From NCBI RefSeq assembly GCF_000025545.1, contig NC_013889.1, positions 2,659,501 to 2,723,500 of the forward strand: a stretch of DNA of 64,000 nt. Direction: 5' to 3'. Positions 1,344 through 29,712 of this stretch are shown here, piece after piece. The position numbers and the translations under genes are program-made. The stretch's first letter is position 1. Each line of letters opens with the position of its first letter. The notes under the pieces are model-generated. The model was not told the origin of the DNA. It saw only the letters and a program-made list of their open reading frames with translations, and did not search any database. This DNA is from Thioalkalivibrio sp. K90mix (lineage in GTDB: Bacteria; Pseudomonadota; Gammaproteobacteria; Ectothiorhodospirales; Ectothiorhodospiraceae).

Positions 1344-2594
1344 TCAGACGAGGATTTCCGCGGGCTCCGGGTGGCTGAGGAAGCCCCTGGGGCTGGCCGT
1401 GTAGCCATAGGCCCCGGACTGGAAGACCACGACCAGATCGCCAATCTCCGCGCGGGGCAGCTCCACCTGCTGACCCAGAACGTCCAGCGGGGTGCACAGC
1501 GGCCCGACGATGTCGACGACTTCACTGGCGGCCTCCCCCATGCGGTTGCCGATGGCGACCGGGTAGTTCTTGCGGATCACCTGGCCAAAGTTGCCCGAGG
1601 CCGCCAGATGGTGATGAAGGCCCCCGTTGGTGACGAGGAATACCCGGCCGCGCGAGACCTTGCGGTCCAGCACCTCGGCGACGTATACGCCCGCCTCCCC
1701 CACCAGGTAGCGACCCAGCTCGAGGATGACCTCGGCCTGCGGCATCCGCGCGCGAACCTCTGGCAGACGCCGCTCGAGCTGCTCCGCGATGGGGCCCAGG
1801 GTCAGCGGTTGATCGCCCGGGAAATAGGGGATGCCGAAACCGCCCCCGATGTTCAGTGTCTCCACCGACCCCGGAGCATGGTCGGCCAGGCGTAATGCCA
1901 GGTCCAGGGTCAGGCCCTGGGCCTCCACCAGCGACTCGGCGCGCAGGTTCTGCGAGCCGGCAAAGATGTGAAAGCCGCGAAAGTGCAGCCCCAGCTCGCC
2001 AATACGCCCCAGCATCTCGGGCACGCGCTCGGCATCCACGCCAAACACCTTGGGCCCGCCACTCATCTTCATGCCCGAGGTCTTCAGCTCGAAGTCGGGG
2101 TTCACGCGCACCGCGACGCAAGGCGTCCTGCCGGTGCGTTCGGCGATCGCCGCGACCCGCGTCAGTTCGGTATCGGATTCGAGGTGGATCGTGATCCCCG
2201 CCGCTACCGCCATCTCCAGCTCGGCCGGGGACTTGCCCGGCCCGGCGAAGCTGATATCGGCCGCGGACACCCCGGCGTCCAGGGCAATCTGCAGTTCGCG
2301 CCCGGAGGCGACATCCAGGCCATCGACCAGCGAGGCCATATGGCCCACAACCGCCGGCATCGGGTTCGCCTTGATCGCGTAGTGGATCGACAGATCCCGG
2401 GGCAGGGCCTGACGCAGGGCCTGGACGCGGCGCGTCATGACCTGTCGGTCATAGGCATAGAACGGGGTCCGGCCCGCGCGGCGAGCGATCTCGGCCAGCG
2501 GGATACCGCCGATCAACAGCGAGTGGTCGCGCACCTCGAAGGCTGCCATCGCCGCATGACGGGGGGCAGAGGTCATGGACACCTCCCGGTTCAT
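1344..2594 (-). CDS. PLP-dependent decarboxylase, exosortase A-associated type
   Basis: A 416-residue fold-type III decarboxylase of the LysA/ornithine decarboxylase superfamily. The PLP lysine lies in YAIKANP (residue 75), the phosphate-binding glycine loop is NIGGGFGIPYF, and a C-terminal GPLCTPLD segment carries the cysteine expected at the dimer-interface active site. Its ATG overlaps the stop of the upstream acyl-CoA ligase in an ATGA, so the pair is translationally coupled. A decarboxylase directly after an AMP-forming ligase is the pairing known from exosortase A (PEP-CTERM) loci, where the two are thought to activate and modify an amino acid or amine for the associated exopolysaccharide. 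The substrate is not known. Family assignment is firm; the exosortase link is inferred from pairing and from the ligase at 4371. Confidence 0.85.
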   Translation of the reverse strand: MNREVSMTSAPRHAAMAAFEVRDHSLLIGGIPLAEIARRAGRTPFYAYDRQVMTRRVQALRQALPRDLSIHYAIKANPMPAVVGHMASLVDGLDVASGRELQIALDAGVSAADISFAGPGKSPAELEMAVAAGITIHLESDTELTRVAAIAERTGRTPCVAVRVNPDFELKTSGMKMSGGPKVFGVDAERVPEMLGRIGELGLHFRGFHIFAGSQNLRAESLVEAQGLTLDLALRLADHAPGSVETLNIGGGFGIPYFPGDQPLTLGPIAEQLERRLPEVRARMPQAEVILELGRYLVGEAGVYVAEVLDRKVSRGRVFLVTNGGLHHHLAASGNFGQVIRKNYPVAIGNRMGEAASEVVDIVGPLCTPLDVLGQQVELPRAEIGDLVVVFQSGAYGYTASPRGFLSHPEPAEILV

Positions 2595-4189
2595 GACAGG
2601 GCGACCTCCTGGAACAGGCCCTCGAACTCGGCCGCCAGCGCCTTGCGGTCAATCTTGCCATTGCCATTGCGAGGCAGGGACTGCGACCGCAGCTCCAGGT
2701 GGCCGGGCACCATGAAGGCCGGCAAGCGTTCGCGCAGCAGTGCCATCAACTGGTCATGGGTCACCGAAGGTTCGGCGGGCAGCGCAACGAGGACGACGGC
2801 CTGGCCCAGCTGCGGATGCGCGATACCGAGCGCCGCCCCCTCGGTCACCAGCCCCGTTGCATAGGCAACCTCCTCGATTTCCACCGGGCTCACCCGGTAC
2901 CCCGAGGTCTTGATCATCTCGTCGCGCCGGCCGACGAAGTACAGATATCCGTCCTCGTCCATCCGCACCGTGTCCCCGGACCACACAGCCATTTCCTGGC
3001 CCGGAAGGCCTTCGGGTTGCCCCGGCGCGGGGCGAAAGCGCTGGGCCGTACGCGCGGCATCGTTCCAGTAGCCCATCGCGACCAGGGCCCCGCGATGGAC
3101 CAGCTCCCCGGGCTCTCCGGGCGCGCAACGGCTGCCGTCCTCGCGCACGACCATGACCTCGGCATTGGGTATCGCCCGCCCCATCGAGTCGGGGCGACGA
3201 TCGACCTCCTCGGGCGGCAGATAGGTGGAACGGAAGGCCTCCGTGAGGCCGTACATCAGATAGACCTGGGTGCGCGGCAGATGCGCCCGCAGACGCTTCA
3301 GGGTCTTCAGGGGCATCGCGCCGCCCGAGTTCGAGATGTAGCGCAGGGATCGCCGCGCGGCCTCCGGCCATTCCATCTCGGCCAGCTGGATCCACAGCGG
3401 TGGCACTGCCGCCAGCCCGGTGATCCCGCCCTGACTCACCGCCTTCAGCACGTCGCGGGGCAGGAGGTAATTGAGCAGGGTGGCATGGGCGCCGGTCAGG
3501 AACGCGGTGGTCAACTGACTGAAGCCGTAATCGAAGCTGAACGGCAGCACGCAGAGGATGCAGTCCTCCGCGCGATTGTGCAGATAGTGCGCGACGCTTT
3601 GCGCGCCGGCCACCAGGTTGCGGTGCGACAGCACCACGCCCTTGGGCCGTCCGGTGCTGCCAGAGGTATAGAGGATCGCCGCCATGTCCGTGTCGATGAC
3701 CCGATGGGCCGGCCGGCCCAGCCCGAAATCCGCCGCCGATTGCCAGGCCTCGAGCCGCGGCCCGCCCGATGTTTCGGCGTCGGGCGGTGTGTCCACGAAC
3801 AGGATGGTGTCCAGCTCCGGACATTGCGCCAGGACATCGCGCAGCGCGGCATGGCGCACGGCGGACGTGACCAGGACACGCACCCCGCAGTCCCGAAGGA
3901 TGTGCGCGACCTGCGAGGCCTTCAGCAGCGGGTTGACAGGGACCATCACCCCTCCCGCCCGCGAGGCCCCGAACATCGCATGGACCGCCTCCGGACATTT
4001 GTCCAGATACACCGCAACCCGGTCCTGTCGCTGGAGCCCGGTGGCGAGTAGCCGTCGCGCCGCGTTCTCGATGTCGCTGGCGGCCGCCTCGTAGGACTGC
4101 GTGACACCCCGATGGGTGATGGCCGAGGCCATTGGGTTTCGTTCGGCGCTGTGCAGAATGCCTTCGTGCAGGAGGGTGGTGTAACGCAT
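2591..4189 (-). CDS. Acyl-CoA ligase (AMP-forming), exosortase A-associated type
   Basis: A 532-residue member of the ANL adenylating superfamily. It shows the P-loop-like YTSGSTGRPKG (residues 174-184), the YGLTEAFRSTY motif that binds the adenine, the hinge region GYRVSPVEIEE, and the C-terminal catalytic lysine in NGNGKIDRKAL. It should activate a carboxylic acid as an acyl-adenylate and load it on CoA or a carrier protein. I chose the ATG at 4189 because an AAGGAG lies about 11 bases upstream; a TTG seven codons further up (4210) is the alternative. It is followed with a 4-base overlap by the PLP decarboxylase and is divergent from the O-glycosylation ligase gene, an arrangement seen in exosortase A loci. 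No carrier-protein gene is visible in the window. Confidence 0.85.
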   Translation of the reverse strand: MRYTTLLHEGILHSAERNPMASAITHRGVTQSYEAAASDIENAARRLLATGLQRQDRVAVYLDKCPEAVHAMFGASRAGGVMVPVNPLLKASQVAHILRDCGVRVLVTSAVRHAALRDVLAQCPELDTILFVDTPPDAETSGGPRLEAWQSAADFGLGRPAHRVIDTDMAAILYTSGSTGRPKGVVLSHRNLVAGAQSVAHYLHNRAEDCILCVLPFSFDYGFSQLTTAFLTGAHATLLNYLLPRDVLKAVSQGGITGLAAVPPLWIQLAEMEWPEAARRSLRYISNSGGAMPLKTLKRLRAHLPRTQVYLMYGLTEAFRSTYLPPEEVDRRPDSMGRAIPNAEVMVVREDGSRCAPGEPGELVHRGALVAMGYWNDAARTAQRFRPAPGQPEGLPGQEMAVWSGDTVRMDEDGYLYFVGRRDEMIKTSGYRVSPVEIEEVAYATGLVTEGAALGIAHPQLGQAVVLVALPAEPSVTHDQLMALLRERLPAFMVPGHLELRSQSLPRNGNGKIDRKALAAEFEGLFQEVALS

Positions 4190-4370
4190 GATCAGAACGG
4201 ACTCCTTCAATGTGGATTCGGCACGCAGCCGAGTACGAATCTTTTACAACCCCATACCCACTCGTTCGGTAAATAGGCTACTCTTCGAATGGGCTGAATA
4301 CTATCGCCGTTTTCATGTGTCGGTATGCTGATCGACACGCACGTACTGCTGTATAGCGGAACTCTCTGCG

Positions 4371-5762
4371 ATGCGCGACTACCTGCTGTTTTTTATAATC
4401 ATGGTGTTGATCCCGGTGATCCTGGCAAGGCCCTGGGTCGGCATCCCGGCCTGGTTCTGGGTCGGCCTGATGGCCCCGCACGGCCTCACCTGGTCTTTCA
4501 TGCGCACGTTCCCCGTGGCCGCCGTCATCGGCATGACAACGCTGGCCGCGCTGTTTCTGGCCAAGGATCGGCGACCGATGCCGATGACACGCGAGATGGT
4601 GATGTTATGGGTCTTTCTCGGCTACATCACCATGACTTCGTATTTTGCGGTAAATTCCAGCGGTGCATGGGACTTCTGGCAGCACGTTTTTAAGATCCTC
4701 CTGATTACATTTATCACACCCATGCTGATATTCGGTCAGCTTCGTATCGTCTGGCTGTTATTAGTTATTACATTCTCCATCGCCTTTTACGGGTTCAAGG
4801 GCGGCCTGTTCACACTGTCCACGGGCGGGCAGTACATGGTGCTGGGCCCGCCGGGCTCCTATCTGGCCGGAAACACGTACATCGGGCTGGCAATGGTGAT
4901 GGTGCTGCCGTTGATCCTGATCAGCGCGCGGCTGTTCCGCGAGCGCTGGGTGGATCTCGAGATCCCGGGCCTGGAGCGCTTCTACCGGCCGATCAGCTGG
5001 GCCGTCTACGGCGTGTTCTGGCTGACCGCCATCGCGATCCTCGCGACCTATTCCCGCGGGGCCCTGCTGGGATTCCTGGTGGTGGCGCCGTTCCTCTTCT
5101 GGCACATGCACCAGAAACTGGCGATGGTGATGGTTGGCGTGCTGGCCTTCGGGGTCATCGGGGTCACCGCGCCGGATCGCCTGCTGGATCGCTGGAGCAC
5201 GATCGAGACCTACGAGGAAGACCGTTCCGCCATGCAGCGCATCCAGGCGTGGGGCGTGAACTGGAACATGGCCACCGAGCGGCCGCTAACCGGGATGGGC
5301 TTTCGGAACCACCACCTCGGCTATGACTGGTGGGTCGGCTACGCGAATTTCGAGGGGGACTGGCGCCACGTGCTGTCGCCGCACAGCATCTATTTCGGCC
5401 TGATGGGCGAGCATGGCTTTGGCGGGCTCGCCACGTTCCTGCTGCTGGTCGGCTTCACGTTCTTTTCGCTGAACCGGATCCGCAAGCGAGCGCGGCTGGA
5501 GACCGGACAAATCTGGCTGGCGGAATACGCCTGGGCCATCCAGGTGGGGTTGCTCGGCTACCTGGCCGCCGGGGCATTCCTCGACGTGATCTACTTCAAC
5601 CTGCTGTTCGCGTTCATCGCCTTGGCCGTCATCATGCGCCGCGAACTGGAAGAAGCACCCCGCGTGGCCGAGGCACCCGTGCCCGCACCGGTCCAGGCGA
5701 ATGCGTTCCCGGCGCGCGCCGAGCCCGACAGCGCCACCGGGGCGCCCGGCGTCTCGCGCTAG
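4371..5762 (+). CDS. Putative O-glycosylation ligase (Wzy/WaaL-like), exosortase A-associated type
   Basis: A 463-residue polytopic inner-membrane protein with about 10-12 hydrophobic segments. The N-terminal region (MRDYLLFFIIMVLIPVI..., with APHGLTWSFM) resembles the domain that marks exosortase A-associated O-glycosylation ligases, and the middle carries a Wzy_C-type segment with YSRGALLGF and a periplasmic loop containing HSIYF. Proteins of this family join lipid-linked glycans to acceptors, or polymerise them, on the periplasmic side. The last 40 residues are an Ala/Pro-rich tail. It lies divergent from the ligase/decarboxylase pair and 29 bases before the next gene, likely the start of a small operon. 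The precise reaction (ligase or polymerase) cannot be told from the sequence. Confidence 0.8.
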   Translation: MRDYLLFFIIMVLIPVILARPWVGIPAWFWVGLMAPHGLTWSFMRTFPVAAVIGMTTLAALFLAKDRRPMPMTREMVMLWVFLGYITMTSYFAVNSSGAWDFWQHVFKILLITFITPMLIFGQLRIVWLLLVITFSIAFYGFKGGLFTLSTGGQYMVLGPPGSYLAGNTYIGLAMVMVLPLILISARLFRERWVDLEIPGLERFYRPISWAVYGVFWLTAIAILATYSRGALLGFLVVAPFLFWHMHQKLAMVMVGVLAFGVIGVTAPDRLLDRWSTIETYEEDRSAMQRIQAWGVNWNMATERPLTGMGFRNHHLGYDWWVGYANFEGDWRHVLSPHSIYFGLMGEHGFGGLATFLLLVGFTFFSLNRIRKRARLETGQIWLAEYAWAIQVGLLGYLAAGAFLDVIYFNLLFAFIALAVIMRRELEEAPRVAEAPVPAPVQANAFPARAEPDSATGAPGVSR

Positions 5763-7642: not shown

Positions 7643-9871
7643 CTAGTCGCCCGCGGGCAGGCGCTGCAGGATGATCCCGCGCCGCAGGTCGGACCAGATC
7701 AGCACATCCGTCCCGGGCAGCGGGGTGACGCGATGCCAGTTCTCGTAGCGGTCAAACGGACGCTCGGCAAAGTCCACCTGCTGCCAGTTGTACATGAGCC
7801 GCCAGGGTTTCCCGCGCGGCGGGTCGCCGATGTACATCTGCCGTGCATTGTTCTGCAGCAGGATGTAATCCCCGGTTTTCGGGTGATAGGTCAGCCGGCT
7901 GCCGCCGGCAACATAGGCCTGTCCGGAGGGCCCGTGCCGCTGGAACCGGCCCTCGCGATCGATGGTGGCCGTGGCCTCGGCGCCGCGGCGGTGGTTGCCA
8001 CCGTACTGGGTCATGCCCCCGTAGATCAGCACCTCGCGGCGGATCGGGTTGTAGAGCGTCGTCCCGCCATAGCCGGAGGACTGGGTACGGCCCTCGGGGC
8101 CCCGGTAGTCCGGGTGGTTGCGGGGATAGGTCCATGCCCGGTCGCCATGCCCCCAGACACGGACCTGCCCCATCGTGTGGGCCTCGATGCCGTCACCCGG
8201 TATAAGGTCGTAGCTGGCGGAGCCCAGCGTGTAGAGGACGAATTTCTCGATGTCGGGGTGCCACACGGTGGAGTGGTCGCCCACCGCATGCGCATTGCTC
8301 TGGCCGGCCCCCAGGCCGACCTCCTCCCAGGCGGTCGGGTCGGTGTACGGGGCGCGCACCAGGCGGCCGATATCGGAGCGCCGCGGCTCGCTCGGCGAGA
8401 AGTACAGGTAGCCATCACCGCCATCCATCAGGCGGTTGTACGGGCGCCGTTCGCCGCCGTCATAGTCGAGCCCCGGCGGGGCCACGACGCCGGCCCAGGT
8501 CAGATCCGGCTCCAGCCAGGTCACCGAGCGGACGGAATTGTCGCGCATCAGGATATTGAACAGCCGTCCGGTCTCCGGATCGAAGATGTGGCGGTCGGTC
8601 CAGCCGACCCCGAACGTGCCCCGCTTTTCCGGGTCGTGCCACTGGGTGTTGTTCATGCGCGCCATGTCCGGAACGCCGTCCGGCAGCCGGGTCTCCACGC
8701 GGCGGAACTCGCCCGGCTCCAGGGTCTCGGCGATGTCGTACAGCTTTGAACGCCGCTCCGGCGCGGGCGCGGATTGCGATGCCGAAACCTGCAGGAACGC
8801 CGCGCGGGGCTCGGCCGATGCTGGCGGGGAGGCCGCCGACCGCTCCTGACCGAACACGGACTGATGCCGGTGCAGCAGCGGGCCGGCCTGGTTGAGCCAC
8901 AGGACCACCCCGTGGTCGTCAATCGGCACCGGCACGATCCCGCCATAGCGATCAAACGGCCAGCGCTGGCCGCTCCAGTCGGCGGCCTTGCGCCATTCGT
9001 CCCTGTCCGGATCGAGCTCCCACAACTCGCGTACACGGCCGGCCCGCAGCACGAGGTAGTTCCCCGTTTGCGGGTCATAGGTCAGGCTCTCGTTCATGAT
9101 CCCGAACACGAACGGGGCGTCGCCGAGGTCACGCACGTGGCCGTTGGCGTCTAGCAGGGAGACCTTGTTGCGTGACTTGTTGCCACCAATAAACAGCATC
9201 TCGTCGCGCACGCGGTTGTACTGGGCCGAGGAGTGATAGCCGTCCACCGCGGCCTGGCCGTGTTCGACCCAGCGGCCTTCGCGGAGGCCGTAGACCTGGC
9301 CCTCGCGGAGGTAGATCAGCTGATCCAGCGCGTCGTGCCACTCGATCGGGTCGGTATGCTCCCAGCCGCCACCGGGGCCGGGGAAACTGCGCGTGGCGAG
9401 TTCCCAGCGATCCTCCGCAATGGAATAGCGATGCAGGGTGCGCTGCGAACGGCCGGCACTGATCTTGTAGTAATGGCCCCGCTCGGGGTCGAGCGCCACG
9501 CCGCCATAGACATGCGCGAAGGGGGGCGGGCCCTCGGCGGACAGGTGCTGCCACGCATGCCGGTCCTCGCTGTAGGCAATGAATACCGGCCGCGATCCAC
9601 GGTCGCCATACATGAAGACCTGGCGCCGGTTGGCATCCCAGTGCGCACTGTCATTCCAGGTATCCGGATCGATCGAGCAGGCACGCAGAAAGTCGTGATA
9701 GCGCTGAAACCCCTCGGGCAGGCCGGCGTCGAGCGGTGCCAGCTCCCCGGGTTGCAGGCCGGCCGCCAGCCGGGCCAGTGCGCTGTCATTCGCCGCCGCC
9801 TGGCTGGCCACGAATCCCAGCGCCAGGGCGACCAGCAGCCAGACGGTGCTGCGGAATGCGAGCCGGCGCAT
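7643..9871 (-). CDS. Exported two-repeat Kelch/beta-propeller-like protein (uncharacterised)
   Basis: A 742-residue protein with a clear Sec signal peptide (MRRLAFRSTVWLLVALALGF..., cleavage after SQAAA). The mature part is two related halves. The first begins LAAGLQPGELAPLDAGLPEGF and contains DTWNDSAHWD; the second, after a Ser/Ala/Pro linker near residue 360, begins IAETLEPGEFRRVETRLPDGV and contains NNTQWHDPEKR. Each half has recurring 'YDPQTGNYLVL / FDPETGRLFN / YHPKTGDYILL' blades separated by Trp/Tyr-rich strands, typical of Kelch or galactose-oxidase-like propellers. No catalytic motif is evident. Its ATG overlaps the stop of the AsnB-like gene (TGATG), so it is made with that ligase. 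Likely periplasmic or surface-bound; binding to glycan is an inference. Confidence 0.7.
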   Translation of the reverse strand: MRRLAFRSTVWLLVALALGFVASQAAANDSALARLAAGLQPGELAPLDAGLPEGFQRYHDFLRACSIDPDTWNDSAHWDANRRQVFMYGDRGSRPVFIAYSEDRHAWQHLSAEGPPPFAHVYGGVALDPERGHYYKISAGRSQRTLHRYSIAEDRWELATRSFPGPGGGWEHTDPIEWHDALDQLIYLREGQVYGLREGRWVEHGQAAVDGYHSSAQYNRVRDEMLFIGGNKSRNKVSLLDANGHVRDLGDAPFVFGIMNESLTYDPQTGNYLVLRAGRVRELWELDPDRDEWRKAADWSGQRWPFDRYGGIVPVPIDDHGVVLWLNQAGPLLHRHQSVFGQERSAASPPASAEPRAAFLQVSASQSAPAPERRSKLYDIAETLEPGEFRRVETRLPDGVPDMARMNNTQWHDPEKRGTFGVGWTDRHIFDPETGRLFNILMRDNSVRSVTWLEPDLTWAGVVAPPGLDYDGGERRPYNRLMDGGDGYLYFSPSEPRRSDIGRLVRAPYTDPTAWEEVGLGAGQSNAHAVGDHSTVWHPDIEKFVLYTLGSASYDLIPGDGIEAHTMGQVRVWGHGDRAWTYPRNHPDYRGPEGRTQSSGYGGTTLYNPIRREVLIYGGMTQYGGNHRRGAEATATIDREGRFQRHGPSGQAYVAGGSRLTYHPKTGDYILLQNNARQMYIGDPPRGKPWRLMYNWQQVDFAERPFDRYENWHRVTPLPGTDVLIWSDLRRGIILQRLPAGD

Positions 9872-11337
9872 CAGGCGACCTTGACGGCCGGATGCATGGC
9901 CGCCTGGTTACGGTGAGGGTCGACGCCCAGCTCCTGCACCGCCTGGAGTAGCGGCATCACCTTGACGAAGGTCGGCGAGAGCGGACGGGTCCGCCCTGTG
10001 CGGAGGGCCTCGAGGGTGTAGCCGACCACACGCTCGGGGCGAGTGAACACATTGAACAATGGCCGCGCCAGGTGGGCCGCCCTGCGGCTGATACCCGTCC
10101 ACTCCGCGCGCGGGTGCGGCTCCGTGGGCTTCTGGCTGTACGGGATGTGCGCGGCGTGGGGATAGTGACTCTTGATCACCTCGTCATGGAACGCGCGCAT
10201 CGCAAACGACTGCCACGGCAGGCTCAGCAGAAACGCCAGCACGTCGGGATCCTGATAGGGCAGGCATACCGCCTGCTGCTGGCCGGCCATGGCGATCGGC
10301 AGCAGGGCGATCTCGCGGCGGATCCGGTTCCAGAACAGGAACGACTTGACCGGGTCGGGGGCACCGGCGTGCGCGGACAGCTCGCGGTTGATCGCCTCAC
10401 GGGCGATCTGTATGCCCCAGCGCTCCTGAAACGGGCGCTTCAGGAACGCGGTATAGCTGCCCGCCGCCAGCAAGCGACTGACCGCACCTGCGAGGTCGTC
10501 GGCATCCAGACACTCGGCCAGACGCGCGTCGAAATAGGAACCGTTGCACAACACATCGCCGGCCAGGCCATCGAATACCGGGCCCTGCAGATGCGGCATC
10601 AGCGCGAGGTACCAGCTGTTTTCGTCGGTGGAGTAGTGGTTCAGGCGGTTTTTCTGTCGCTCCGCGGCGATACGATCCTGGGGATTGTCGATCACCTGGC
10701 ACTCGATGCCCAGGTGCCGGGCCACTGTGCACGCCACCCCACTCTCGTCCCCCCTCTTCGCCCGCAGGACCAGGGTTCGGGGTGGCGGGGTGCCCTGTTG
10801 CGCCAGCTCCAGACAGATATGGCGCGAGTCGCGGCCGCCGGACAAAGGCAGGCGCCCCACTCCTCCAGCGGCGCGCCGTTCGATGGCCCGCGCAAAGAGT
10901 TCCGCGAACCGTATCCGTGCCTCGTGCGGGTCTCCGGAAAAAGGGGCCATCAGGGGGGTGGCGGGGCGCTCGCCGGAGAGCACACCCTCGCGCCACAGCA
11001 GGGTCTCTCCTGGCATCAGAACCTTCACGCCCGCCAGCGGAGTCTGGTCACCCACCAGATAGCCCAGGGCCATGAAGACCGCGATGGCCTCGTCGTCAAA
11101 AGTGGGCGCCGACAAGCGCGCCGCGGCCTCCTGCAGGGAGTCGGCCACGATCAGGCGACGGCCCTCGCGGGCATAGAACAGCGGGATGAACCCGAGCCGA
11201 TCCGCCGAGACGGAGAGACTCGCCCCGTCGAATGACCAGCCCGCGACGAGCGTCGGGCCTCCGGCGACCCAGTCGAACCCCAGATGATGGGAAGCCTGCC
11301 CCAGGCACTGGCGACCGATAACCTCTACGAACGCCAT
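9871..11337 (-). CDS. Asparagine-synthetase-like amidoligase lacking the glutaminase cysteine
   Basis: A 488-residue protein whose C-terminal two thirds is the AsnB synthetase domain, with the ATP-pyrophosphatase loop LSGGRDSRHI (SGGRDS at residues 166-171). The N-terminal glutaminase domain is cut short: it starts MAFVEV rather than Met-Cys, and only its last third (around SADRLGFIPLFYA) remains, so the Cys nucleophile is absent and glutamine hydrolysis should be impossible. Such proteins activate a carboxylate as an acyl-adenylate and couple it to an amine supplied otherwise, as in beta-lactam synthetase or lasso-peptide cyclases. The frame runs open 183 bases further up, but the ATG at 11337 has a GGAG and gives the homologous start. 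It lies in an operon with the ATP-grasp gene upstream and the propeller gene downstream. Confidence 0.75.
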   Translation of the reverse strand: MAFVEVIGRQCLGQASHHLGFDWVAGGPTLVAGWSFDGASLSVSADRLGFIPLFYAREGRRLIVADSLQEAAARLSAPTFDDEAIAVFMALGYLVGDQTPLAGVKVLMPGETLLWREGVLSGERPATPLMAPFSGDPHEARIRFAELFARAIERRAAGGVGRLPLSGGRDSRHICLELAQQGTPPPRTLVLRAKRGDESGVACTVARHLGIECQVIDNPQDRIAAERQKNRLNHYSTDENSWYLALMPHLQGPVFDGLAGDVLCNGSYFDARLAECLDADDLAGAVSRLLAAGSYTAFLKRPFQERWGIQIAREAINRELSAHAGAPDPVKSFLFWNRIRREIALLPIAMAGQQQAVCLPYQDPDVLAFLLSLPWQSFAMRAFHDEVIKSHYPHAAHIPYSQKPTEPHPRAEWTGISRRAAHLARPLFNVFTRPERVVGYTLEALRTGRTRPLSPTFVKVMPLLQAVQELGVDPHRNQAAMHPAVKVA

Positions 11338-11419
11338 CGTATGCTCCGCGAGGGGCCCCGGTGGACCTGGAGGCCTTTTCGCCGATCCGCGTAATGAGCT
11401 GACAGCGAGGGCATGGCGG

Positions 11420-12601
11420 CTAATGCAGCTGCGAAGACGAAGGGGGGCACGAGAGGCCGGCGGTTTCCAGATAGCGTTTGTCCGCCAGCAGGGCCTGCCG
11501 GATACGCTGAATGCCATCACCGAACCCGACGTGCTGAAAACGCTCGTTCACCTCGATCAGGACCGGACCGTTCGGGGTCAGGGCCACGTCCCAGCCGGCC
11601 GTCCGGATTGGCAGAAGGTCCCTTGCCGCCGTCTTGACCAGCTGCAGGGCCTCCGCCCAGAACGGCACCTCGAATCCTTCGATCAAGGCGCCCGTGGTCG
11701 GGTGGTGGGTGACCCAGTTATAGCCCAGGCCATTGGCGTTGAACGCCCAGGCCTTGCCCAGCCGTCCATCGTCGAGCTGCGGCAGGGCCACCACGTTGGC
11801 CGTGTAACGGCCGGTGCGCGGGTCACTGATGTTATCGGTAACCGAATCGCCGACAATCAGGCGGAAGTGACAGTCCAGCACCTCCGGGTCCCCTTCCGGG
11901 CTGACCCGGGTGAACAGTCTCAGCGCCGATATGGAGCGGGTCCCGGTCAGTTCGGCGACGCGGTCATGGCTGCGCAGACGCTGCTCGAGGATGCGATCCT
12001 CGCCATCATCGGCCAGACCAGCGACCTCCTTCGCGAACTCGGGCAGGGCGATGCCCTCCCGTGCATCCAGCCCCAGCGCGACAATCCCGCGCCCCTGGCG
12101 GCCGTGCCTGGGCTTGGCCAGAAACGATGCGGGTAGCCGCCGCACGAAGGCCTCCCATTGCGCGGGCGTGGAGAGCGGCTCTCCCTGGGCGTCGCGCGAT
12201 CCATGACGCGAAACCACCCCGAGCAGGGCGGCCACAGGGAGGTCATGACTGCGACAGAAGTCGTGAAACATGAGCTTGTCGCGACACATCGCCGCATGCG
12301 GCGAGTTCACCGCATGCTGAAGCCCGTGCAGGCGTTCTTCGCTGACGTGGGCCAGGTGTTCGTTCACCGGAAGCCGCGGGTCCAGCAAACCCCGACACAA
12401 CGACTCACCCGGCAGAAATCGACCGGCCCCGTACAGCCGCAGCGCCTTCCAGGCAATGGCCGGTGTCGAGGAACCATAGTGGTTGGCGGCCGCCTGAAAC
12501 TGGCCCCACACATCGGAGCGGCAGAAGTGCCGCACAATGTGATTAGAGCGATAAAGCGCGGATACCAACAACCCCGAGACTTTACCCACGATGGACTCCA
12601 C
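11420..12601 (-). CDS. ATP-grasp protein, sugar-transfer-associated type
   Basis: About 393 residues with an ATP-grasp fold: FLAKPRHGRQGRGIVAL (nucleotide-binding lysine and Gly-rich loop), EQRLRSHDRV, and the metal-binding end AGWDVALTPNGPVLIEVN. Members of this subgroup sit in exopolysaccharide or sugar-transfer loci and are presumed to join a carboxylate to an amine or hydroxyl; none is biochemically defined to my knowledge. The start is unsure: a GTG at 12601 (VESIVGK) is used here; a TTG at 12694 extends it by 31 residues of non-conserved-looking sequence, and neither has a strong Shine-Dalgarno. It is a homologue of the frameshifted gene at 14657-15765. The AsnB-like gene follows 82 bases later. 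Confidence 0.75.
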   Translation of the reverse strand: MESIVGKVSGLLVSALYRSNHIVRHFCRSDVWGQFQAAANHYGSSTPAIAWKALRLYGAGRFLPGESLCRGLLDPRLPVNEHLAHVSEERLHGLQHAVNSPHAAMCRDKLMFHDFCRSHDLPVAALLGVVSRHGSRDAQGEPLSTPAQWEAFVRRLPASFLAKPRHGRQGRGIVALGLDAREGIALPEFAKEVAGLADDGEDRILEQRLRSHDRVAELTGTRSISALRLFTRVSPEGDPEVLDCHFRLIVGDSVTDNISDPRTGRYTANVVALPQLDDGRLGKAWAFNANGLGYNWVTHHPTTGALIEGFEVPFWAEALQLVKTAARDLLPIRTAGWDVALTPNGPVLIEVNERFQHVGFGDGIQRIRQALLADKRYLETAGLSCPPSSSQLH

Positions 12602-25506: not shown

Positions 25507-26214
25507 ATGGAACAAAACGACAACCAGGACTCAAGCCGGCGCCAGGAGGGGCTGGATGCACACGGCCACAATCGGCGGCGTCTGAGCCGGGCGATGCTCG
25601 GGGCCACCCCTCTGCTGATGACCCTGCATGCCTCGCCATTGAAGGCGGCCGGTGCGAACTGCATGCCCTCGGGCTGGGCGTCCGGCAATGTGTCGCGCCA
25701 CGACGGGCCCCAGGACTGCGGCGGCCACTCCCCCGACTACTGGAGTGGCGGCTATGACCCGTCGCACGCCAGTCTTTCGCGCAATGTCAGTGCCCAGGGC
25801 CGTGGTGGTGGCCAGCTGTTCAACAGCGCCTCCTTCCACAGCCATCCGGAATGGCGGCTGGCGGTGGAGTCCGGCGTGCTGTTCGACTCGAACTACGGCT
25901 TCCCGGGCGTGAGCCGGGGCTTCCAGGAAGAGGAAGGGGATCTCACCATGATCGGGGCCGTCTCTGCCTCGGTGTTCGTGCTGGATGCGCAGGGGGCAGC
26001 CGAACGCGAAGTGATCCGCTACGGCACCGCCGCACTGTTGAATGCCAGGTACACCAACGGGTATCCGCTCTCCGAACGCCTGGTGCGGGACATCGTTACC
26101 GACACCCTGGAGCATGGCCACTACGAGACCGATGGCGGCGACCGCCTGTACCCCGAACAGGTGTATCGGTTCCTCGAGAACACGATGGGCCTCCCGAGCT
26201 GGGGGTCCGCCTGA
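25507..26214 (+). CDS. Predicted exported protein with twin-Arg-like leader, first gene of the HPr-rel-A cassette
   Basis: A 235-residue protein that I do not recognise as a named family. The polar N-terminus is followed by NRRRLSRAML (residues 22-31) and a moderately hydrophobic stretch GATPLLMTLHASPLKAAG, resembling a Tat leader (RR-x-L with a basic residue after) ending near residue 49. The mature part starts with two cysteines (C52, C71) and the motif CGGHSPDYW (71-79), then FNSASFHSHPEW, and a helical C-terminal half (TAALLNARY, IVTDTLEHGHY, PEQVYRFLENTM). Translation is well supported: GGAGGGA lies 7 bases before the ATG. It precedes the PqqD-like gene by 40 bases on the same strand. 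I infer that it is the target, carrier or surface product of the three downstream enzymes; this is untested. Confidence 0.75.
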   Translation: MEQNDNQDSSRRQEGLDAHGHNRRRLSRAMLGATPLLMTLHASPLKAAGANCMPSGWASGNVSRHDGPQDCGGHSPDYWSGGYDPSHASLSRNVSAQGRGGGQLFNSASFHSHPEWRLAVESGVLFDSNYGFPGVSRGFQEEEGDLTMIGAVSASVFVLDAQGAAEREVIRYGTAALLNARYTNGYPLSERLVRDIVTDTLEHGHYETDGGDRLYPEQVYRFLENTMGLPSWGSA

Positions 26215-26254
26215 GCCATTCATTCCGTAATGGCCGGAACCCAGGGGGAACGAT

Positions 26255-26521
26255 ATGTCGCGCCGCAGGTGGCAACGGACTGACGGGCTGCAACAGCGCA
26301 CCCTGGGTCAGGAGTGCGTGGTGTTTCACCCCGGGGCCGGCACCACCCATCTGCTGACACCCGCGGCCGCCGCGCTGATGGACGGCCTGGCCAAGGGCGT
26401 GGCAATGGACGAGGCCGCACTGGCCCGACACCTGGGCCTGTCGGAGAAGGACGCGGAGGCCGAACTGGGGCGCTGGCTGTCCAGCCTGCAAACGGCCGAT
26501 CTGATCCGGGAACACCCCTGA
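26255..26521 (+). CDS. PqqD-like small protein, HPr-rel-A system type
   Basis: An 88-residue protein with the PqqD-like winged-helix pattern: a beta-rich N-terminus (ECVVFHPGAGTTHLLTPAAAALMDGLA), then a helical half (MDEAALARHLGLSEKDAEAELGRWLSSLQTADLI). PqqD-type domains bind leader peptides of ribosomally made peptides and present them to modifying enzymes; the version found next to HprK-related kinase A has no demonstrated partner to my knowledge. A strong AGGGGGAA precedes the ATG. Its TGA overlaps the next ATG by one base (TGATG), so it is coupled to the kinase-like gene. Confidence 0.8.
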   Translation: MSRRRWQRTDGLQQRTLGQECVVFHPGAGTTHLLTPAAAALMDGLAKGVAMDEAALARHLGLSEKDAEAELGRWLSSLQTADLIREHP

Positions 26522-27432
26522 TGCGGATCGCGGATCTGGGACAGGCCCGGCTCCAGCGCAGCCTGACGGGCCGCGGCCTGTATCTGCGCACTGGCCCCTT
26601 CACCAGCCGCATCCAGAGCCCCATCGCCAGCGTGGCCCGGGGCATCGAGTCGCTGTACCGGGACTTCGAGGTGGCCGACGACTCGAGTTTCTACGACTTC
26701 CACTGCGAGCTGCGCGCACCGCGTTCCCACCGCCGCTTCTATCGGCCCCAGGTCCTGTTTCTCGCCGACCGTCGCAGCGTCTTCAAGCCCCTGGCCTACG
26801 ACCAGGCCTATCCGATGCTCGAATGGGGACTGAACTGGTGCATCGCCAACCAGGTGCCGCATCGACTGGTACTGCACGCCGCCGCCCTGGAACGCGACGG
26901 GAAGGCCCTGATCCTGCCGGCCCCGCCAGGCTCCGGGAAAAGCACCCTTTGCGCAGCCCTGGCCCATCACGGATGGCGCCTGCTAACGGACGAGTCCGTA
27001 CTGGTAGACCTGGCCTCCAGCGAGGTTTCCGGACCCGCGCGGCCGGTCAGCCTGAAAAACGACTCAATCCGCGTGATCCGCGACACCTGCCCGTCGGCAG
27101 TCCTCAGCACGCCCATCGCGGACACGCTGAAGGGCGCCGTAGCGCACATGCGCCCGCCGACGGATGCCGTGCGCCGCAGTCACGAGACCGCCCGGCCCGG
27201 GTGGATCGTGTTCCCGCGCTACCAGCCAGGAGCCCCCACCCGGCTGAAACCGCGCACGGCGGGTTCCGGGTTCATGCAGCTGATCGCCAATGCCTTCAAT
27301 TACGCCGCCCTCGGTGCACGGGGTTTTCACAGCGCCGGACGACTGGTCGAACAGTCCGCATGCTTCGACTTTTCCTACAGCCGTCTGGACGAGGCCATAG
27401 AGCAGTTCAACGGGCTGGCCGATGGACGCTGA
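26521..27432 (+). CDS. HPr-kinase-related P-loop protein (HprK-related kinase A type)
   Basis: A 303-residue protein. The C-terminal two thirds resembles the HprK/PEPCK-type kinase fold: LVLHAAALERDGKALILPAPPGSGKSTLC (Walker A GSGKST at residues 137-142, preceded by the conserved His-Ala at 119-120), then LLTDESVLVDL as the acidic motif. Unlike true HPr kinase it has no Firmicutes-type N-terminal domain; the first 110 residues (Tyr/Phe/Arg-rich) are specific to this group. No HPr or PTS gene is in the window, so the name reflects fold only. The phospho-acceptor is unknown; the exported protein, the PqqD-like partner or a sugar are options. It overlaps the next gene by 11 bases. Confidence 0.85.
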   Translation: MRIADLGQARLQRSLTGRGLYLRTGPFTSRIQSPIASVARGIESLYRDFEVADDSSFYDFHCELRAPRSHRRFYRPQVLFLADRRSVFKPLAYDQAYPMLEWGLNWCIANQVPHRLVLHAAALERDGKALILPAPPGSGKSTLCAALAHHGWRLLTDESVLVDLASSEVSGPARPVSLKNDSIRVIRDTCPSAVLSTPIADTLKGAVAHMRPPTDAVRRSHETARPGWIVFPRYQPGAPTRLKPRTAGSGFMQLIANAFNYAALGARGFHSAGRLVEQSACFDFSYSRLDEAIEQFNGLADGR

Positions 27433-28540
27433 CACCGCACTGCGCCTGGCCCTGGCACGGCCGGAGAGCATGGCCGAGCGCACGGCGGCCGAATGGGCCC
27501 CGCTGCTGGCGGCCGCGCGCGAGAGCGCACTGCCGGGTACGCTCTGGCACCTCGCGGACGACGCGGGCCTGGCGGACGGCCTGCCGGAACCGGTGGCCAG
27601 CCAACTCTGGGGCGCCGCCCTGATCGCCGAGCATCGCTCGCAGGCCCTGGTCTGGGAACTGCACCGCCTGGAAAACGGGCTGCTCTCGCGGATGAGTCCG
27701 GGTGTCGCGCTGAAAGGGGCGGCCTACCTGGCCGCCGGGCTGCCGAATGCGCGTGGACGGCTGGCCAACGACATCGACCTGCTCTTTCCCCACAACGAGG
27801 TGGAACGCGCCGAGAAGCTCCTGTTCTTCGAAGGCTGGTCGGGCACGCACCACAATATCTACGACCAGCGCTACTACCGCGAGTGGATGCACGAACTGCC
27901 GCCACTGGTGCACCAGAACCGCGGCACCACGCTGGACCTGCACCACAACATCCTGCCGGAGACCTTTCGCGGCCATCTCGATGCCGCGCGCCTGCGGCAG
28001 CAAAGCCAGGCGCTCCCGGAACCCTTCCGCTTCCGGATCCTGTGCCCGGCGCACCTGGTACTCCACGCAATCGTGCACCTGTTTTCGGAGACGGAATGGG
28101 ACCGCGGCCTGCGCGACCTCTACGACATCCATGTGCTGCTCGGCCACTTCGGTGCCCGTGACGGCGATGCCTTCTGGGAGCATTTCGTCGTGGAGGCCGA
28201 GGCCCTGAACATCGCCTGGATGGCGGAGCGCGCGTTGTGGACCGCGAACCGGCTACTGCTGACCGAGGTCCCGCCCGAATCCGTCAAACGGCTGGCCCGG
28301 GCACGCGCGGGCATTGCCCTGCGGGGCCCCGGCCGCTGGGCATTCGTGCACGGGCTGCATACGCGTGCCGGCTCGATCACCCCCCGCCGCGATGCGCTCG
28401 CACGGGGCATGCTGTTTCTGCGCGGGCACTGGCTCAAGATGCCGGCCGGCCTGCTGGCGCGACACCTGTTCCACAAGGCCTTCCTCGCCGAGAAACCGGA
28501 GACGGCCACGGCCCAGCCGCAGCCGGAACAGCACGGTTAG
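27422..28540 (+). CDS. Nucleotidyltransferase-fold protein, HPr-rel-A cassette
   Basis: A 372-residue protein of the putative nucleotidyltransferase family often seen beside HprK-related kinases. The catalytic core is ALKGAAYLAAG (residues 97-107) followed by ANDIDLLF, whose D117 and D119 would bind metal, and by a third acidic strand TTLDLHHNIL. The rest is helical (HLVLHAIVHLFSETEWDRGLRDLYDIHVLLGHF), as in minimal nucleotidyltransferases with C-terminal helical domains. It may transfer NMP or a related group to a protein or small molecule. The stop TAG lies inside the TTAG target duplication of the inserted repeat element, so the insertion landed exactly at the gene end without altering it. 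Confidence 0.8.
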   Translation: MDADTALRLALARPESMAERTAAEWAPLLAAARESALPGTLWHLADDAGLADGLPEPVASQLWGAALIAEHRSQALVWELHRLENGLLSRMSPGVALKGAAYLAAGLPNARGRLANDIDLLFPHNEVERAEKLLFFEGWSGTHHNIYDQRYYREWMHELPPLVHQNRGTTLDLHHNILPETFRGHLDAARLRQQSQALPEPFRFRILCPAHLVLHAIVHLFSETEWDRGLRDLYDIHVLLGHFGARDGDAFWEHFVVEAEALNIAWMAERALWTANRLLLTEVPPESVKRLARARAGIALRGPGRWAFVHGLHTRAGSITPRRDALARGMLFLRGHWLKMPAGLLARHLFHKAFLAEKPETATAQPQPEQHG

Positions 28541-28854
28541 GGAGACGCTGATTTAATCGCGCGTCCGCGCTCGAGTCGCTTTTGCGTGCGAACAAGGCGT
28601 GGTGACTGCCGTGCAGTCATTCTGCACAAAGGAACCGCAACGCCGTTCCCACGCCCGTTTCTGATAACAACGGGCGGCCGAGCCCCTGCTTTCAATCGCT
28701 TGTGGGGTTGGTGCCCCCTGTTCCCCGATCCTGCGTTGCGCCCCGAATCCGTCAAAAACGGGCGGGTAGAACCACTACCCGCTGCACGACGCGCCTTGTC
28801 TCGGAAAACAGGGGGCGCCAACGCGGACGTGCGATTAAATCAGCGTCTCCTTAG
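28537..28854. mobile_element. Transposase-less inverted-repeat element, copy 1 (MITE-like), with TTAG duplications
   Basis: The element itself is 28541-28850 (310 bp). It begins GGAGACGCTGATTTAATCGC and ends with the near-perfect reverse complement; about 29 bases pair at each end. TTAG flanks it on both sides (28537-28540 and 28851-28854), a 4-bp YTAR target duplication as made by IS5-group transposases. It encodes nothing convincing. Inside are further pairings: GTGCAG-TCATT-CTGCAC (28611-28627), GCGGGTAG/CTACCCGC, ACAAGGCG with CGCCTTGT, and GTTGGTGCCCCCTGTT with its complement near the right end. It lies between two convergent genes that would be 12 bp apart without it. Confidence 0.85.
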
Positions 28855-28866
28855 AGAGACGGCGAT

Positions 28867-29712
28867 TCAATCACCTGCTCGCGAGCGGTATTGTTCCAGC
28901 AGGGGACGAATCCGGTCCGAGGGGATGGCGTAGGTGATCCCGCTCGGGTTGCGCACGGCCGCTTCCCGCCCGCCCTGGACGTAGACCTGGTTGATTACCC
29001 CGATCACCTCGCCGGTGTCCTTGCGGTACAGGGGGCTGCCGCTGTTGCCCGGATAGGCCGTGGCATCCAGCTGGAAGACCATCGGCGGGGCATTGCGCAG
29101 GGCGCGTATGCGGCTGTCATCCAGCTCCGCGGCACGGCGCGCCGGGATCGCCATCGGGGTCATCGCCGAGATGCCCGCGCGATGCGTGGCCGGGTACAGC
29201 CCCAGGATCATGCCGATGGGGTAGCCGGTGAACGCGACCTCCTCTCCGACCCGTACGCGGCTGGAATTGCCGAGCTGCAGCGCGGGAAGGGAGGGTGCGG
29301 CGATGCGCAGCAGGACGAGGTCATCGCTCGCGGAGCGGGCCAGGACCTCGGCATGATGGATCGTGTTGTCCCGACCCTGGCCACTGACCACCACCAGTCG
29401 TTCCCGGTTGTCCTGGTCCAGATTCCCGGGCAGGACATGATCGTTGGTGACCACGAGACGGCCATCGTCGATCACAAAGCCGGTCCCAAGGTACTGGGCG
29501 CGCGGGCTGCGGGTCGGCTGATAGGTCGCAATACTCACCACCGAGGCCTTTACCCGCTCGGCCGTATCGGGCAGCGGATCGGCGAGCGCCTGGCCCGGCG
29601 CAACCACCAGGACGAGCAGCGCAAGCGGTATCGCCATCCAGAACGGGACCCGCGGGCGCCGGTAACAAACGGGCCGCCGAAGGTCCCCAAGACGGTCTCC
29701 CCAGCCCCACAT
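28867..29712 (-). CDS. Exported trypsin-like serine protease (S1C type, no PDZ)
   Basis: A 281-residue protein with an N-terminal hydrophobic signal (MAIPLALLVLVVAPGQALA after an Arg-rich n-region) and a chymotrypsin-fold domain. The triad is visible: H92 in TNDHVLPGN, Asp in SDDLVLLRI (about 131) and S224 in YPGNSGSPL. DegP/DegS normally carry one or two PDZ domains after the protease; here the chain ends just after it, so substrate recognition must differ. The ATG at 29712 is backed by GGAGGG seven bases upstream. Expected location is the periplasm, in envelope quality control or processing. It converges with the HPr-rel-A cassette across the inserted repeat. Confidence 0.85.
   Translation of the reverse strand: MWGWGDRLGDLRRPVCYRRPRVPFWMAIPLALLVLVVAPGQALADPLPDTAERVKASVVSIATYQPTRSPRAQYLGTGFVIDDGRLVVTNDHVLPGNLDQDNRERLVVVSGQGRDNTIHHAEVLARSASDDLVLLRIAAPSLPALQLGNSSRVRVGEEVAFTGYPIGMILGLYPATHRAGISAMTPMAIPARRAAELDDSRIRALRNAPPMVFQLDATAYPGNSGSPLYRKDTGEVIGVINQVYVQGGREAAVRNPSGITYAIPSDRIRPLLEQYRSRAGD

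Follow-up and report, generated by a model that had tools for sequence, protein, structure and literature searches.

A predicted Tat substrate as the constant partner of PqqD-like, HprK-related kinase and nucleotidyltransferase proteins: a candidate leader-guided modification and export cassette

What do a PqqD-like protein, an HprK-related kinase and a nucleotidyltransferase-fold protein act upon when their genes stand side by side? Such a set is encoded in a 64-kb stretch of DNA from Thioalkalivibrio sp. K90mix, analysed here as a whole and referred to as the window. The genes form a tight operon on the + strand: X, a 235-aa predicted exported protein (25507..26214); D, an 88-aa PqqD-like protein (26255..26521); K, a 303-aa HprK-related kinase A (26521..27432); and N, a 372-aa nucleotidyltransferase-fold protein (27422..28540). 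Gene positions and family models confirm the initial annotation of four same-strand genes with these three enzyme types. The overlapping stop and start codons that it described for three of the genes are present between D and K (1 nt) and between K and N (11 nt), but X and D are separated by a gap of 40 nt, so that two junctions overlap.

D matches the HPr-rel-A system PqqD family peptide chaperone model (TIGR04353, which adjoins K elsewhere too) with 62.7 bits (cut-off 35), and K matches TIGR04352 with 419 bits (cut-off 200), both in NCBIfam; N matches Pfam family PF14907 with 169.1 bits (cut-off 31.2). With K and D above curated cut-offs and a neighbourhood as in other members, the locus corresponds to HPr-rel-A, of which we take the nucleotidyltransferase to be a part, following the initial annotation. 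D lies below the cut-off of the general Pfam PqqD model (19.2 versus 23.4 bits). The two NCBIfam models of HPr-rel-A name K and D, whereas X is in neither NCBIfam nor Pfam (no match at E ≤ 1). A promoter scan found none, and a terminator scan found 3 where 2.9 were expected. Lasso peptide clusters have an asparagine-synthetase-like cyclase (C protein) next to the precursor; the window encodes one Asn_synthase-like protein, some 14 kb away from X, that scores 20.7 bits, just below the Pfam cut-off of 21.

We surveyed the gene upstream of the PqqD-like gene at 121 kinase loci, among whose kinases no pair is at least 99.5% identical and which form 94 clusters at 80% identity. X is present at 120 loci and in 94 of 94 clusters, and the sole locus without it (L141) begins at a contig edge. 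N was found at 120 loci, and the plain order X-D-K-N at 109. Because this order recurs among non-redundant kinases and X is found in every cluster, the arrangement is far beyond chance. The association of the three enzyme genes is thus borne out; across the 121 loci, the enzymes do not occur mostly apart, and the first gene is conserved beside them. In whole-genome searches with profile A1, X stands next to K in 38 of the 41 carriers. At an annotated Sphingomonas plasmid locus, X is labelled 'hypothetical protein'. Exceptions that count against the explanation favoured below are a locus without N (L077), another without D (L150) and a Vibrio plasmid locus at which the D profile found no D. Its nearly invariable position as first gene suggests that X is the target of the three enzymes, and X as a constant fourth member is a new point relative to the HPr-rel-A models.

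X carries a twin-arginine motif (residues 23–24), followed in its N-terminal mature stretch by C52, S55, S59 and C71 and then by a degenerate GYW-type motif (SPDYW). In an alignment of 83 X sequences, 66 rows have a letter at position 23, and 65 of these have Arg there; the counts for position 24 are the same. A 38-row alignment shows at least 90% conservation of M1, R23, R24, C52, S55, S59, C71, W79, L178, while the mature part as a whole is diverse. In most X, the pattern C-x2-SG-x2-SGN-x-S follows directly after the signal. Of 117 X signals, 94 gave a match to an SGN-like stretch; all 117 were chosen by an R-[RK] pattern, so that RR percentages in this set are partly by construction and our RR counts come from the 83-row alignment. 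The genome encodes TatC (230.6 bits, cut-off 132.7), and X, with its twin-arginine motif, is a predicted Tat substrate. Inspection of sequence and alignment reveals no C-terminal sorting signal in X.

Several features of X count against the explanation favoured below. The SGN-like stretch was not matched in 23 of the 117 signals, the sequence ahead of the RR pair is variable, and at the six loci with N divergent the mature X sequences are unlike; since they differ there, one fixed modification site is impossible for all X. The AlphaFold model of X (pLDDT 66) is uninformative and gave no structural match in the PDB at E ≤ 0.001.

The kinase retains an invariant Walker A motif, PGxGKST (136–142), together with H119 and D157-E158 in 28 of 28 aligned rows. 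In N, residues K98, G99, R113, D117, D119 and H174 are invariant in 38 of 38 rows, so the D-x-D seen in the initial annotation is upheld as D117 and D119. Fusions also occur among relatives of K: K with N in a single frame (L095), D with K (L208 and L210), K with GT2 and GT25 domains (L203), and K with GT2 and PqqD domains (L201). By inspection, D, K and N carry no signal of their own and therefore should act in the cytoplasm. PDB sequence searches with X, K and N yielded no assignment, with HprK chains at E 0.02. The N model matches solved nucleotidyltransferases (JHP933, MenAT1, ANT(2'')-Ia, LnuA and FKRP) weakly (best E 2.1e-3, TM-score over the query ≤ 0.35), which counts against the favoured explanation; the KG and D-x-D motifs are conserved in N.

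Could K regulate HPr? Its match to HprK (TIGR00679) is weak, spanning the P-loop and DE/DD regions and reaching 14.8 bits where the cut-off is 240, and a separate true HprK is encoded elsewhere in the genome (287.8 bits); we therefore rejected this role as the main reading. A lasso peptide cluster was also rejected, because Transglut_core3 (PF13471), which we take to be the family of the lasso B2 leader protease, has no matches in the whole genome.

By description, the tailoring set of lasso peptides (paeninodin kinase, pseudomycoidin K and N, and B1) is nevertheless alike, comprising an HPr-kinase homologue, a nucleotidyltransferase and a PqqD-like binder. The lasso kinase phosphorylates a Ser of the precursor, which is C-terminal in the characterised case, and the nucleotidyltransferase adds a hexose to the phosphoserine (PMC8498205). 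PqqD-type B1 proteins bind precursor leaders (PMC7533575). The cassette differs in that X, its candidate substrate, is exported and about 200 aa long; the conserved Ser residues of X (S55/S59) are internal, which counts against the favoured explanation. Within the open-licence literature, we found no functional paper on HPr-rel-A and none joining PqqD, HprK and nucleotidyltransferase or exosortase, PqqD and kinase; looser combinations returned lasso papers only.

Genomes with distant D-K loci encode short proteins that carry the extended signal of X. Gly-Ser stands right after the signal in 19 of 19 such proteins, all but one of which were chosen through the X signal. Outside this set, short twin-arginine proteins were found by position at L203, L208, L210, L217, L225 and L226; all six have Ser/Thr after the signal but lack Gly-Ser directly there, which counts against the favoured explanation. 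The short proteins of L203 and L225 have Thr-rich or Ser-rich mature tails. Run across the phylum (398 genomes), a profile of the short leader (A4) gave weak matches in 14 genomes (best E 2.3e-6); this is a further point against the favoured explanation, and either makes it doubtful that short precursors are a very common class or means that the profile is narrow. Four GYW-domain proteins encoded away from cassettes, read at four of six such places, have neither the signal nor the SGN stretch. At the level of sequence, the extended signal common to otherwise unlike precursors and the D-K fusions support the leader-presenting role proposed for the PqqD-like protein in the initial annotation.

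On balance, we lean towards the cassette being a unit for the leader-guided modification and export of X. X would be made in the cytoplasm, with its twin-arginine signal doubling as the recognition leader. D, the proposed leader-binding element, would bind this signal and pass X to K. The putative protein-serine kinase K would then phosphorylate a conserved Ser/Thr just beyond the signal (for the X of the window, S55 and/or S59), near the future mature N-terminus. As the second-step transferase, N would transfer a group to that phosphate, either a sugar or phospho-sugar, as in the lasso precedent, or a nucleotide. A phospho-sugar appears at least as likely as a nucleotide, because in the lasso case the phosphoserine receives a hexose, and K has relatives that are fused to glycosyltransferases. 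Modified X would be exported by Tat and may act at the cell surface with the XrtA exopolysaccharide system.

XrtA is encoded in 35 of the 41 K carriers and in 38 of 328 other genomes (Fisher p 1.4e-22), and polysaccharide genes lie near the cassette. The tie to exosortase A drawn from the XrtA neighbouring genes is supported by enrichment among K carriers. In adjoining genes and co-occurrence the cassette resembles the XrtA/PEP-CTERM system; unlike in that system, the predicted export signal of X is N-terminal and of Tat type.

The co-occurrence with XrtA, the nearby polysaccharide genes and the diverse mature part of X would also suit a scheme in which the target of D, K and N is a different protein or a polysaccharide precursor, with X as a functional partner that binds what they make or displays it at the surface. 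We think this unlikely: PqqD-type B1 proteins bind precursor leaders (PMC7533575), and it is difficult to see why long X and the short proteins of D-K genomes should share a signal unless the enzymes recognise the precursor. It also seems improbable that the cassette serves export control, with D as a Tat proofreading chaperone and K and N reversibly modifying the signal region of X so as to time export without marking the mature protein. The most constant part of the precursor is indeed the signal itself, and the three enzymes should act in the cytoplasm; however, the conserved Ser lies after the signal and not inside it, and the glycosyltransferase fusions and the Thr-/Ser-rich mature tails point to a lasting modification.

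A constant leader ahead of a variable body, with short precursors in related loci, recalls RiPP-type natural products. X would then be a large precursor from which a short N-terminal mature stretch is excised and secreted in modified form, perhaps by the product of the convergent neighbouring gene (28867..29637, − strand), a trypsin-like (HtrA-type) serine protease whose L047 homologue matches Pfam Trypsin_2. Of 81 well-flanked loci, 30 have a homologue of this possible accessory, which lies outside the core, no more than 5 kb from K, but the other 51 have none within that distance, and most aligned X are about 200 aa long and share conservation towards the C-terminus (ALLNA region). We regard excision as very unlikely.

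The modification and export proposed for X would supply HPr-rel-A, a named association, with a definite candidate for the substrate, another for the site and an order of reactions. If the proposal is true, kinase/nucleotidyltransferase tailoring reaches from lasso peptides to exported proteins, Tat export is tied to covalent modification, and the XrtA exopolysaccharide system acquires a new protein component. More speculatively, and with considerable doubt, the cassette might belong to a so far undescribed class of protein phospho-glycosylation in Gram-negatives that is guided by a leader: the Tat signal would play this part for the PqqD-HprK-nucleotidyltransferase set, and a Ser beside the cleavage site would be marked before export. 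Substrates would be anything between short peptides and 200-aa proteins and might lie scattered across the genome; where XrtA is present, the marked protein would be the acceptor or anchor for exopolysaccharide.

A kinase tree, with unsettled bootstrap values and many long branches and thus background only, groups the TIGR04352-type kinases with the two plasmid HprK-related kinases A and a single distant row on a long branch. A further nine distant rows fall into one group, and the majority of these come from loci or genomes that have short precursors belonging to the set of 19.

The four genes at window 25507-28540, all on the forward strand, encode the exported protein X (235 aa), the PqqD-like protein D (88 aa), the HprK-related kinase K (303 aa) and the nucleotidyltransferase N (372 aa), in that order. 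D scores above the curated TIGR04353 cut-off, K above that of TIGR04352 and N above that of PF14907, which bears out the single-strand, four-gene set of the initial annotation. The D/K overlap is 1 nt and the K/N overlap 11 nt. These profile matches place the window cassette in the HPr-rel-A association, on which the open-licence literature yielded no functional paper. X itself matches no Pfam or NCBIfam family at E ≤ 1. The identity, anatomy and constancy of this fourth member are new here, as are its short-precursor relatives and a candidate site of modification.

K scores above the TIGR04352 cut-off in 41 of 369 genomes of the class. We compared 121 loci: the window, 40 other carrier genomes of the class and the best 80 of 226 loci from a named collection, where the loci closest to the window are those of Thioalkalivibrio sp. 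ALJ21, T. thiocyanoxidans ARh2 and Thioalkalivibrio sp. ALJ3 (98%, 95% and 90% identity to the window K). From these loci we derived profiles for X, D, K and N and used them to search the same loci in all six frames. The order X-D-K-N is present in 109/121 loci, and the enzymes are thus not mostly apart, in line with the association claimed earlier. Six loci have X-D-K with N divergent, two have X-X-D-K-N and one has X-D-X-K-N; L077 carries X-D-K, L150 X-K-N and L141, which begins at a contig edge, D-K-N. The initial annotation had placed the first gene with the enzymes and proposed searching HprK-related kinase A loci for the gene upstream of D; X is detected in 120 of the 121, a figure that is not independent, as the X profile was made from the very loci counted. 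No two of the 121 kinases are ≥99.5% identical, and X is found in every one of the clusters that they form at 95%, 90% and 80% identity (113, 106 and 94, respectively).

When A1, a profile of 38 X proteins that also contains X rows from the genomes searched, was run over all 369 whole genomes, K had an adjacent X in 38 of the 41 carriers; those missed are G091, G134 and G259, of which the locus in G259 sits at a contig edge. D is above its cut-off in 34 of the 369 genomes and lies at the K locus by coordinates in 32 of these. The two genomes with D outside K loci are G232, where D adjoins a sub-cut-off kinase, and G318. Where gene calls allowed the comparison, adjacent genes overlap or abut in 75/110 loci for D and K and in 85/107 for K and N.

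X opens with a variable N-terminal stretch, which is followed by a twin-arginine signal, and TatC is encoded in the Thioalkalivibrio genome. Across 83 aligned X gene calls, Arg occupies position 23 in 65 of the 66 rows without a gap there, and position 24 equally often (65 of 66). We selected 117 signals from 123 X hits by an R-[RK] pattern, leaving six unaligned; they share a longer pattern of spaced residues (P 76%, T 72%, L 74%, S 79%, P 74%) up to an A-x-A site. In 84/117, the hydrophobic stretch has a basic residue close to its end; such a residue helps to hold Tat signals away from the Sec route.

After the signal, most X proteins contain C-x2-S-G-x2-S-G-N-x-S, a second Cys, a motif close to S/T-P-G-Y-W-K-N-H and, later, an ALLNA region. 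The positions conserved at ≥90% in 38 aligned X are M1, R23, R24, C52, S55, S59, C71, W79 and L178. Of the 78 ungapped rows of the 83-row alignment, 69 have Ser and 4 have Thr at position 55; at position 59 the counts are 71 Ser and 4 Thr, again of 78. An SGN-like stretch is recognized by pattern in 94 of the 117 X and is absent in 23; all 117 carry a Ser or Thr no more than 16 residues from the signal, which taken alone is weak evidence. The window X retains C52, S55, S59 and C71, and its GYW motif reads SPDYW. Its AlphaFold model (pLDDT 66) is poor except for the C-terminal helices and has no PDB match at E ≤ 0.001. One genome holds a second X, with signal and SGN-type stretch, remote from its own cassette (L198). 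As judged from these comparisons, X is a well-supported candidate substrate of D, K and N.

A1 also matched short proteins through the signal alone, and we took 40 extra regions for such matches, for sub-cut-off K matches or for matches to the GYW domain. We collected 19 short proteins of 56 to 153 aa (18 short frames from X profiles and one called gene, L192) with a signal of the type SRRxFLKKxAYVAPAILTLxAxPxxA; R8, R9, F11, P20 and A27 are invariant in their alignment (A4), and all 19 have Gly-Ser after the signal. Some adjoin or lie near a distant D and/or K (L181, L183, L184, L185, L188, L192, L194 and L215), and others lie elsewhere in genomes having a distant D or K (L182, L186, L187, L189, L190, L193 and L196); these distant kinases fall below the TIGR04352 cut-off. 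Position or pattern turned up six more short twin-arginine proteins next to relatives of D, K or N (L203, L208, L210, L217, L225 and L226); these have Ser/Thr after the signal and lack Gly-Ser directly there, so Gly-Ser marks one subgroup, collected via the X signal. A constant leader and a variable body adjoining a PqqD-like protein have the look of leader-guided modification. A short-leader profile gave only weak matches, in 14 of 398 genomes of the phylum, which speaks against a very common class of short precursors or reflects a narrow profile. L181, L184, L186, L190 and L193 also carry C-N-[NQ]-G-[FV] after Gly-Ser, which hints at another conserved unit within this subfamily.

The active-site motifs of the enzymes are kept: H119, Walker A PGxGKST (136-142) and D157-E158 in 28/28 rows of K, which aligns weakly with HprK over the P-loop and D-D region, and K98, G99, R113, D117, D119 and H174 in 38/38 rows of N, seven of them distant. 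The predicted model of N is confident (pLDDT 92.8) and weakly resembles the nucleotidyltransferases JHP933, MenAT1, ANT(2'')-Ia and LnuA and, lower down, FKRP (E 0.32). Fusions suggest that the cassette parts work together. K and N share one frame in L095, and D and K are fused by our profiles in L208 and L210 (in Pfam, PqqD is above its cut-off in L210 and Hpr_kinase_C below in L208). K is fused with GT2 and GT25 domains in L203, where a GT2 protein also has a weak PqqD match (19.3 versus a cut-off of 23.4 bits), and a GT2-PqqD-K fusion in L201 adjoins a PF11397 GlcNAc-type glycosyltransferase. The region L203:148-8504 encodes a pair of similar twin-arginine proteins, of which the one seen in full has a long Thr-rich C-terminal tail, next to the GT2-GT25-kinase fusion, the GT2/weak-PqqD protein, D and N; this looks like a dedicated glycoprotein locus.

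By analogy, the cassette may work like the tailoring set of lasso peptides. PMC8498205 and PMC7533575 describe an HPr-kinase homologue that puts phosphate on the precursor's C-terminal Ser, a nucleotidyltransferase that adds one or two hexoses to the phosphorylated product in vivo, and B1, a PqqD-like leader binder. On this precedent and that of the glycosyltransferase fusions, we tentatively favour a phospho-sugar over a bare nucleotide. Whereas the Ser phosphorylated in that lasso system is C-terminal, the conserved Ser residues of X are internal. Identity with a lasso cluster was rejected, since PF13471 is absent from the whole Thioalkalivibrio genome.

Relatives also occur on plasmids. A Sphingomonas parapaucimobilis plasmid has a four-gene locus with a weak X match (E 0.0055). 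Vibrio alfacsensis plasmids (L221, 4875-7942) carry a longer X (270 aa), K and N, with D neither annotated nor found by the D profile. On Leisingera and Shinella plasmids, a short twin-arginine-type protein precedes a K relative, which adjoins an N relative in Leisingera only; no short twin-arginine precursor was seen in the Ensifer and Parasedimentitalea regions.

The A1 search gave six GYW-domain matches remote from any cassette, four of which were read (L199, L200, L219 and L220). None of these has a twin-arginine signal, and the 60 residues preceding the domain contain no C-SG-SGN-S stretch, apart from a partial SGYSG in L199. In these places the GYW/GFW/SFW-type domain sits towards the C-terminus of longer secreted proteins, of DUF7507 type in the case of L199, with no adjoining cassette.

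XrtA (TIGR03109) is above its cut-off in 35 of 41 K genomes versus 38 of 328 others (Fisher p 1.4e-22, which is too small as kinship was ignored). Exosortase-A-associated genes, including a putative O-glycosylation ligase (TIGR03097), occupy window 1344-5762; the XrtA gene lies outside the window, ~44 kb from K. Among 81 well-flanked loci, XrtA-system genes within 9 kb of K encode polysaccharide export (15), chain-length (15), PrsT (15) and PrsK (6) proteins, and a trypsin-like protease lies within 5 kb of K in 30, mostly upstream on the same strand. From these minority counts, most cassettes do not directly touch XrtA-system genes or the protease. In the window, the protease gene (28867-29637), with homologues near K elsewhere, is convergent to the cassette.

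Within the polysaccharide island, an Asn-synthase-like protein just below the Pfam cut-off adjoins a sugar-transfer-associated ATP-grasp protein (window 9871-12601). Directly after N, a 316-bp element (28538-28853) has 32-bp terminal inverted repeats that are 94% complementary. Its end sequence has 23 genome copies at ≤1 mismatch, 20 of which face each other as 10 pairs, their starts separated by 262-292 bp; by this arrangement, it is a multicopy MITE-like element.
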